The notes below the pieces were generated by a model that had not been told where the DNA came from, ran no database searches, and was given only the letters and a program-made list of their open reading frames with translations. Source: Deltaproteobacteria bacterium (GTDB lineage: Bacteria; Bdellovibrionota; JACOXK01). Taken from it: DNA of 38,275 nucleotides. Each line of letters opens with the position of its first letter. Within the stretch, counting starts at the first letter, position 1. Location of the stretch: NCBI GenBank assembly GCA_016186995.1, contig JACPKQ010000010.1:66970-105244 (forward strand). Direction: 5' to 3'. Below are positions 19,925 through 38,180 of this stretch, one piece after another. The translations under genes were made by a program, and so were the position numbers.

Positions 19925-20079
19925 TTAGGTTCTTGAAATGACAGTGTCTTGCGCTTCATGGCTCGCTGTAGCTGTCCCAACGAACTCTCTGTCATCCCCG
20001 CGAAGGCGGGGATCCAGTATTCTATTTTATTACAAACCTTGGGCTCCGCTTTACTTCCGCTTCAGACACTGATCATTTC
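19925..20079 (-). repeat. Inverted copy of the oppB-oppC composite repeat, carrying a GTCATCCC hairpin
   Basis: Matches the inverse of 8801-8967 in three blocks (36/40, 19/20 and 10/10 bases). In this copy the central part contains a tight hairpin, ATCCCCGC-gaag-GCGGGGAT (19994-20013), inside GTCATCCCCGCG...GATCCAGTATT. The same hairpin unit recurs at 38155. Confidence 0.85.
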
Positions 20080-26268: not shown

Positions 26269-26297
26269 GTCATTCCACGGTTTAACCGGGGAATCCA
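26269..26297. repeat. GTCATTCC-type hairpin repeat before thiI
   Basis: GTCATTCCACGGTTTAACCG followed by GGGAATCCA: outer arms ATTCC/GGAAT and inner arms GGT/ACC. It is a diverged copy of the hairpin family also seen at 19991, 32164 and 38155, ending ten bases before the thiI start codon. Confidence 0.7.
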
Positions 26298-30260: not shown

Positions 30261-30309
30261 GTCATTGCGATTGTTCTCTCTGTCATTGCGAGCGCAGCGA
30301 AGCAATCTC
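30261..30309. repeat. GTCATTGCGAG-type repeats left of the GIY-YIG gene
   Basis: A short copy GTCATTGCGA (30261-30270) and a fuller copy running from GTCATTGCGAG (30282) to GCAATCTC (30309). The latter is the inverted counterpart of the copy at 30677-30714. The following bases to 30316 are also found inverted between oppB and oppC (8744-8758). Confidence 0.8.
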
Positions 30310-31388: not shown

Positions 31389-32969
31389 TTAAATGAGTCT
31401 CTTATATTCTTTAATTTCTTTTCTCCACACAGGAACCCCGCAGTAACGATCCCCTTCAGGGCAATAGGGTTTTTTCTCTGCCTGTTTTCGAAGATAACAA
31501 GGCGCAAGAATGTGTTTTCCTATAAGAGGAAAAACTTGATTTACTTGAACAAGCTCATCAATGCTTGAATAAAAAATTTCTTCTTGTGCGTTATAACATG
31601 TTCTTAATTTCCACTTATGATGAAAGTTTAAAAGATCTCCTGATTCTTCAAACCGAATAGCATGAGCATTAGGTAAAAGATAATGTGCATTTTCAAAGCT
31701 TTCACCTTTTTCTAAAAGTTGGTTGATGGCTTTATAAGAATTTTCCATTGTTTTTTCATAAACCTCTTCAGCCTGAGGAGTTTGTTTGATAACAAGTGGC
31801 GTAATGTAATCGGGCTTTCCATGATAGTGCGTTTCAAGCACAGGGCGAGAGCCGGGGGTCATTCTATGACGTTGTTCTTGCGAATCGGCTGTGTGGCTTA
31901 GTTTTTTTCTAAAAGTAAAATGAACATGGCACAGTGCACGAGAAAGCTTTGTGTGCATGTTTGGATTTAAAGTATCAGAAAGATAAGGATTGTATTTTGG
32001 GTTTAACACCCTTTCGATGGCCTCATGGTCTGGAAGATTTTTGTGAGGAATACCCAAGATAGTTCTTACAGACCTTGCTAAGGTATGTTCTGCATTTATT
32101 TTATAATCAATGAGTTTCGACCAACGCCCTTCAAGTGTGTGATCAAATTCTTTTGTAAAACTACTGGATTCCAGCTTTCGCTGGAATGACATAGAGGGTG
32201 TTGTTCCAAACTCTTCCATCAGTTTAAATTCTGGAGTTGCTTCAAGTGGATAAGGATCTTGCAATTCTTTTTCAAAAAGTGGGTCGTGTTTTCTAACTTC
32301 ACTAATCATTTGATCGATCACAAGTTTTTGCTCGCAGGGTGTGTCAAAGATGGAAGCCATTTTATAATAACGCATTAAGGTAAGGGCACTAATGGTGTGA
32401 TAAAGATAAGCATGCGTTGCGATGGGTAAACAATAACGGGCGACTTCGTAAGTTTTTTTAAGAACAAGTGGGCCCCACTTTTCTCTATTTTTAAGTCTGT
32501 GTGGAAATATTTTGTAATATTCTTTTTGAATAGTTGGTTTTACAAGTTCAATCAGTTGATTATAATTTTCCATTTGCATGGAAAGTGCATCTTCATAAAT
32601 TTTTAGGTTTTCACTTTTAAGATCTGGAATATGAAAGTTATCAGGTTGCACCCTTACATATCTTTGAGAAACCTGTTCTGAATTATAAAATGGGTGAGAG
32701 TGCAAAAAACTCCAAATAAAACTTCGTGACACGGCATCCATACTAAAAACAAAGTGGGCATGCTGGCGTGTTGTGAGGTGCCCTGCTTCAAGTGTGCTTT
32801 GCGCAATGCGGTCTCTTAAGGCACGTGATTTTTCATCTTTATCAACTTCTTCTGGAGTAATAATACCCTTTGATGAATAGCAGGTTCTTGCTGTAGCTAT
32901 GGAAAGATTGTAGGGTTTTGGAATGATCTCGATCAACTTGATTTTGGGAGATTTACGATTGAATTCCAT
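31389..32969 (-). CDS. Tandem ThyX-like protein (FAD-dependent thymidylate synthase family, two domains)
   Basis: ThyX makes dTMP from dUMP with flavin; a standard chain has 220-250 residues and works as a tetramer. This one has 526 residues, with two ThyX-like halves. The N-half (about 10-245) includes ARTCYSSKG, EAGHLTTRQHAHFVF and the signature region HSHPFYNSEQVSQRYV (90-105). His92, Ser101, Arg103 and Tyr104 are kept there but both Arg of RHR are lost. The C-half (about 275-526) includes EHTLARSVRTILG, RHRMTPGSRP (367-376) and LPNAHAIRF. Residues 260-268 (MSFQRKLES) come from a hairpin repeat inserted between the halves. Whether it makes dTMP is uncertain. Confidence 0.8.
   Translation of the reverse strand: MEFNRKSPKIKLIEIIPKPYNLSIATARTCYSSKGIITPEEVDKDEKSRALRDRIAQSTLEAGHLTTRQHAHFVFSMDAVSRSFIWSFLHSHPFYNSEQVSQRYVRVQPDNFHIPDLKSENLKIYEDALSMQMENYNQLIELVKPTIQKEYYKIFPHRLKNREKWGPLVLKKTYEVARYCLPIATHAYLYHTISALTLMRYYKMASIFDTPCEQKLVIDQMISEVRKHDPLFEKELQDPYPLEATPEFKLMEEFGTTPSMSFQRKLESSSFTKEFDHTLEGRWSKLIDYKINAEHTLARSVRTILGIPHKNLPDHEAIERVLNPKYNPYLSDTLNPNMHTKLSRALCHVHFTFRKKLSHTADSQEQRHRMTPGSRPVLETHYHGKPDYITPLVIKQTPQAEEVYEKTMENSYKAINQLLEKGESFENAHYLLPNAHAIRFEESGDLLNFHHKWKLRTCYNAQEEIFYSSIDELVQVNQVFPLIGKHILAPCYLRKQAEKKPYCPEGDRYCGVPVWRKEIKEYKRLI
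32164..32190 (-). repeat. Hairpin repeat inserted in the ThyX-like coding sequence
   Basis: Perfect 8-bp stem ATTCCAGC-tttc-GCTGGAAT (32168-32187), flanked by CTGG and GAC, the same family as the intergenic copies at 19991 and 38155. It is in frame and is read as MSFQRKLES in the linker between the two ThyX-like halves. Confidence 0.85.
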
Positions 32970-38154: not shown

Positions 38155-38180
38155 GTCATCCCTGCGCAGGCAGGGATCCA
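38155..38180. repeat. GTCATCCC-type hairpin repeat upstream of icd
   Basis: ATCCCTGC-gcag-GCAGGGAT (38158-38177) in the frame GTCATCCC...GATCCAGTATT, shared with 19991-20020. The bases after it (ACAACCTTGG) also recall the other copy. The remaining part of 38096-38275 shows no gene that I can support; an icd promoter was not clear. Confidence 0.8.

Follow-up and report, generated by a model that had tools for sequence, protein, structure and literature searches.

An in-frame palindromic repeat of putative CGTC-1 type in the linker of a two-domain ThyX-like gene

The in-frame capture of repeats by bacterial genes is a known phenomenon, and hairpins of the kind described here are known from many bacteria. 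In the available text of Di Nocera et al. 2013 (PMC3733652), CGTC REPs are defined by just such an anatomy of head, stem, loop and tail. Members of the CGTC-1 class carry an unpaired CGTC head at one end, often found as TGTC or CCTC, and R. conorii RPE-6 and Neisseria dRS3 are assigned to this class. The same text describes CGTC REPs as having no dedicated transposase and reports copies in frame within many genes, often repair genes and also tRNA synthetases. According to the accessible part of the R. japonica paper (PMC3767692), RPE-4, RPE-6 and RPE-7 have the word ATGAC in common, and different RPEs occupy the same sites in orthologues.

Here we describe a 38,275-nucleotide stretch of DNA (the window) in which a repeat of this kind is read in frame within a ThyX-like gene. 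A lineage outside the alphaproteobacteria thereby joins a phenomenon best known from Rickettsia, with a dense in-frame set. New here are the lineage itself, how densely its conserved enzymes carry in-frame copies, the clean empty sites and the repeated occurrence of copies in CarB.

A palindromic repeat in the ThyX linker

The features of the window discussed below are the following.

31389..32969, minus strand: two-domain ThyX-like gene (Thy1, PF02511), 526 aa, intact (Pfam, PDB and homologues)
32148..32279, minus strand: hypervariable linker between the Thy1 halves, residues 231-274, holding the repeat (homologue alignment)
32164..32191, minus strand: candidate CGTC-1-type REP, a perfect hairpin (sequence and RNA fold)
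32191-32188, minus strand: TGTC head
32187-32180 and 32175-32168, minus strand: stem arms
32179-32176, minus strand: GAAA loop
32167-32164, minus strand: CCAG tail
19991..20016, plus strand: further copy of the thyX-type repeat (pattern match; no long gene there in the list of open reading frames)
38155..38180, plus strand: further copy of the thyX-type repeat (pattern match; no long gene there in the list of open reading frames)

The 526-residue protein matched the Pfam Thy1 family in two stretches (E 3.5e-52). Both halves matched solved ThyX chains by sequence, and the structural model matched them by fold. The minus-strand sequence of the repeat, TGTCATTCCAGCGAAAGCTGGAATCCAG, reads TGTC ATTCCAGC GAAA GCTGGAAT CCAG, with the TGTC unpaired, and its predicted RNA fold has 8 pairs and the GAAA loop. 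The codons at this place, ATG TCA TTC CAG CGA AAG CTG GAA TCC AGT, read MSFQRKLESS, and the repeat encodes ThyX residues 261-268 (SFQRKLES). The original prediction of a hairpin translated in frame as MSFQRKLES was correct in both coordinates and translation, and the reading frame around it is uninterrupted.

The 28 bases of the thyX copy were found unchanged on two other contigs of the same genome (G000:C26:36642 and C8:3499). A hairpin pattern with eight positions left free and up to 3 mismatches allowed had 3 matches in the window and 0 in 100 shuffles; in the 1.68 Mb genome it had 88 matches, and the reversed pattern had 0. Chance resemblance was ruled out by the 28-base identity and these two controls. 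The segment could also be viewed as an ordinary ThyX linker that resembles the repeat by accident, since the site is hypervariable and relatives have linkers of similar length. This view is refuted by the identity over 28 bases, the perfect hairpin, the 88 family members against none in the control and the lack of the peptide in all 94 homologue rows, and we give it virtually no credence.

The sequence anatomy of the repeat would place it in the published CGTC-1 class. In the head, GTC is invariant or nearly so, and a T precedes it in 81% of 77 copies. The predicted stem has 8 bp with complementary AT in its first two positions; pairs 4-23 and 5-22 are A-T or T-A in 85/87 and 87/87 copies, at positions that the search pattern fixes. 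The loop has 4 bases (positions 12-15), which are GAAA in the ThyX copy. The CCA tail, C-C/T-A at positions 24-26, is conserved at 100/64/94%, values partly set by the search pattern. A GTAG REP mobilised by a RAYT was rejected as a candidate, because the head is TGTC and not GTAG and because no Y1_Tnp was found in the window's genome (93% complete). The likeness to Rickettsia in the original prediction turned out to be closer than claimed, RPE-6 being itself a CGTC-1 member in the published classification as far as the available text goes.

Two other hairpins or repeats were noted in the window. The original prediction had listed intergenic copies of the family at 19991, 26269 and 38155; the first and last belong to the family and are not covered by any long gene, and the copy at 26269 (gtcattccacggtttaaccggggaatcc), just upstream of an open reading frame, falls outside the family at up to 3 mismatches and is at best a diverged or different hairpin. 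The stretch 26269-26296 has an outer stem ATTCC..GGAAT with CGGTTTAACCG inside and lies directly upstream of a ThiI-like frame (named by eye). A second repeat family, TCATTGCGAGCNNAGCGAAGCAATC, occurs at window 30283-30307 and has 39 genome matches (up to 2 mismatches) against 0 for the reversed control. In-frame copies of this second family seem to account for the VIAS..KQSH stretches of MutS and UvrC.

Homologues of ThyX were compared at the linker. A single-sequence protein scan of the genome contigs returned no match, and an alignment-based query returned 80 loci. In a comparison of 94 homologue rows, in which some genomes count twice (e.g. L011 and L110), neither QRKLES nor the hairpin was found within the coding part. 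The outcome named with the original prediction as refuting it, a segment shared by every homologue, was thus not observed (0/94 rows). The nearest relative, from the single additional genome available for the host's family, was 65-66% identical, and the phylum set was more distant. The linker of the window protein, bounded by the anchors P230 and F275, is 44 residues long, 4 more than the 40 of the nearest relative. Linker lengths were 30-42 in 92 rows, with one row at 44 and one at 48; the window's linker is about 5-6 residues above the usual length. The sequence of the linker was unalignable even among relatives. Homologues joining TTP directly to the SSF/TKEF region, as had been expected, were not seen: the hypervariable linker is present in all 94 rows, and no clean empty site was found among them. 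The insertion of nine residues into a linker of 35 would fit the observed lengths, and a replacement would fit them equally.

An AlphaFold model (pLDDT 86) was built from 41 of the 81 available rows, L118 and, for reasons of size, the remaining rows being left out. In it a helix (262-279) opens with the residues that the repeat encodes, after a low-confidence stretch (251-260). Judging from this model, the repeat appears to lie at a tolerant site. Copies also flank thyX in other genomes, just upstream in G004 and just downstream in G010 (L011, L013), and the repeat thus recurs around thyX.

In-frame copies across the genome

The 87 distinct copies read here include a self-palindromic place entered once per strand and a match at window 11667 that resembles a chance one. 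Flank profiles indicated a unit of 28 bases, with a T preceding GTC, a G following CCA and weak conservation outside. Stem pairs left free by the pattern co-vary: pair 6-21 is Watson-Crick in 78/87 copies and pair 9-18 in 79/87, and the best of 500 shuffles, which ignore the relatedness of copies, gave 58 and 48, respectively. Twenty-two copies sit between frames on the same strand, which by eye look like different adjacent genes.

The genome-wide count of in-frame copies, suggested along with the original prediction, is high: 28/87 lie 20 or more codons within a stop-free frame of 110 aa or longer, one further chance-like match in a long frame having been dropped. A Pfam scan covered 22 of these 28 (all except L004, L041, L043, L058, L097 and L101) and found 17 either within a Pfam domain or flanked by two Pfam matches to a single protein. 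Named from Pfam and PDB matches, the genes with a supported copy are ThyX, UvrC, riboflavin synthase (RibE), RibD, a DsbD-type membrane protein, a histidine kinase, MutS, CtaA, prolyl oligopeptidase, a cytochrome c assembly protein, PurN, a spore-photoproduct-lyase-like protein, CarB, Lpd, ValS, a methyltransferase and NadE, the last with a degenerate copy (3 mismatches). The other 5 scanned copies lie before a domain (2), just after one (1) or in frames without a family (2).

Five of the six reading frames of the unit are free of stops. Among the 17 supported copies, DSR(F/L)RGND-type readings were the most frequent (9), followed by HSREGGN-type (3), VIPAKAGI (3), SFQRKLES (1, in ThyX) and SIPA (1). 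The use of the DSR(F/L)RGND frame, 9/17 against an expected 1/5, gives a binomial p of 0.0026 for a frame picked post hoc. The favoured frames are hydrophilic, with a mean Kyte-Doolittle value of about -2.2 compared with +0.8 and +1.0 for the others. Purging of harmful (hydrophobic) inserts would alone suffice to explain this bias.

Stretches resembling MSFQRKLES, VIPAKAGIQ or DSRLRGND in predicted proteins should be read as repeat DNA and not as conserved domains, a warning for annotation. The original prediction that the repeat can create protein sequence is supported only as far as the open reading frame is concerned.

Empty sites and the arrival of the repeat

Comparison with relatives revealed clean empty sites for the copies in three further genes. 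In RibE, exactly 14 additional residues are missing from 14/14 relatives; ValS has 8 (DSRFRGND), missing from 15/15 relatives covering the site; and in Lpd the extra stretch spans about 31 residues, missing from 7/7 relatives covering the site. This Lpd stretch is made up of a single unit and, after it, short tandem repeats; in this gene (L078:763-2232) the distal part of the unit recurs as DKGDRGN x3, as if expanded by slippage. These empty sites show that the copies in RibE, ValS and Lpd arrived as insertions. Against solved structures, gaps for extra residues were likewise seen in ValS, RibE, RibD (11 residues) and PurN (about 6), and MutS has about 50 residues with the second repeat family in them. 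The CarB and NadE copies add only about 2 residues each relative to the solved structure; not every copy is therefore a clean addition, and some copies seem to replace sequence rather than add it. The claim that the family is or was mobile is borne out by RibE, ValS and Lpd and not by ThyX by itself, because a hypervariable linker only 4 residues longer than that of the nearest relative is no proof of mobility.

We consider it very probable that a CGTC-1-type palindrome of 28 nt was inserted in, or otherwise gained by, the flexible linker of a fused ThyX. The unit would have entered the linker between the ThyX halves, or been acquired there in some other way. It may have stayed because five of six frames are open, because its arrival preserved the frame and because the site would accept almost any sequence. 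The ThyX copy is one of many, with at least 17 recognised genes of this genome holding in-frame copies in mostly hydrophilic readings. From the behaviour of the family, and not from an empty site at ThyX, we infer that this copy came by insertion rather than by a rearrangement with loss of linker. Its retention would reflect tolerance rather than benefit, and the encoded peptide would be made.

Spread in the phylum and relation to described repeats

At up to 1 mismatch the repeat was found in 11/290 genomes sampled from the phylum. G010 had 139 matches, the window's genome 55, and others 31, 26, 16, 14 and 9; four further genomes had 1-3 each. The single other genome of the same family (G001) has one copy, in frame in a DNA polymerase X-like gene (L010; named by eye) near its thyX. 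This patchy distribution fits a family that spreads and gets lost.

In CarB, in-frame copies were found in three genera at two linkers. The copy in G005 (L217), read DPRFRGDD, sits in the linker that also holds the copy of the window's genome (L077), and that in G004 (L213), read HSREGGNL, lies at another. A further in-frame copy was found in a CarA-like frame of G010 (named by eye). In G001, too, the copy-bearing CarB linker is enlarged, by about 40 residues.

These copies bear on two other explanations. The window's genome is a metagenome-derived draft in 30 contigs, and unrelated reads joined at the repeat could have produced an assembly artefact. The repeat is just 28 bases long, though, both ThyX halves stand in the correct order and frame, 16 further genes show the same intact order and frame, and in-frame copies occur in the CarB, PolX-like and CarA-like frames of other genomes, which makes an artefact extremely improbable. 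The in-frame copies could alternatively have been selected for a function, either as a hydrophilic linker or tag peptide or as an RNA hairpin acting in the mRNA. Both the uneven use of frames (9/17 in the DSR(F/L)RGND frame) and the recurrence in CarB speak for such selection; against it, the targets are unrelated enzymes, the copies lie in loops or linkers, relatives do without them, and the loss of hydrophobic insertions would produce the same bias. We regard selection for function as improbable, and insertion or acquisition followed by tolerance remains our preferred reading.

The Y1 (IS200/IS605-type) transposase was searched for in the window's genome (93% complete) and none was found, which agrees with CGTC REPs without a dedicated transposase as described in the available text of PMC3733652. 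Y1_Tnp was present in 3/7 repeat-bearing genomes, and 0/5 of those loci hold the hairpin. On these grounds mobilisation by a RAYT was rejected: no Y1_Tnp was found in the window's genome, and in the genomes that have it the hairpin does not flank it.

Tentatively, and with more doubt than confidence, we suggest that CGTC-1 repeats are an ongoing source of short hydrophilic inserts in this deep-branching lineage. They might be dispersed by a non-Y1 enzyme, with selection on the peptide sorting strand and frame, and DSRxRGND might thus have spread through unrelated essential enzymes and been captured repeatedly by CarB in three genera. The sets differ between genera and the repeat is the same, so both the mover and the tolerated inserts are testable by strain comparison.

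The available main text of PMC3733652 has 0 occurrences of Bdellovibrio, thymidylate synthase or valyl. A literature search for the encoded peptides found no match, and the matches listed for GTCATTCC were only unrelated papers. As described in the consulted parts of the sources, CGTC-1 REPs resemble the thyX-type repeat in an 8-bp stem starting from AT, a 4-base loop, a CCA tail and the TGTC variant of the head; they also share the lack of a dedicated transposase and the presence of some copies in frame in genes. Similarly, the RPE-6 and RPE-4 elements of Rickettsia (R. conorii, R. japonica) lie in frame within conserved genes in the published excerpts, which also show different elements returning to identical positions in orthologous genes, a pattern matched by CarB in the present set; the word ATGAC typical of RPE-4, RPE-6 and RPE-7 is part of the thyX-type repeat too. 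The Rickettsia inserts are longer, 84-192 bp among the rows listed, whereas those described here are mostly single 28-base units. Rickettsia is alphaproteobacterial, unlike the present host as judged from its nearest named relatives ('Deltaproteobacteria' metagenome assemblies and a Bdellovibrio), which would put the window in Bdellovibrionota or close to it. RPE-1 works alike as a palindrome in frame in genes, but is longer and of another sequence, a distinction drawn from the published description in the part available. Neisseria dRS3, a CGTC-1 member in the same partial source, occurs mostly in large clusters, whereas the copies described here are mostly dispersed.
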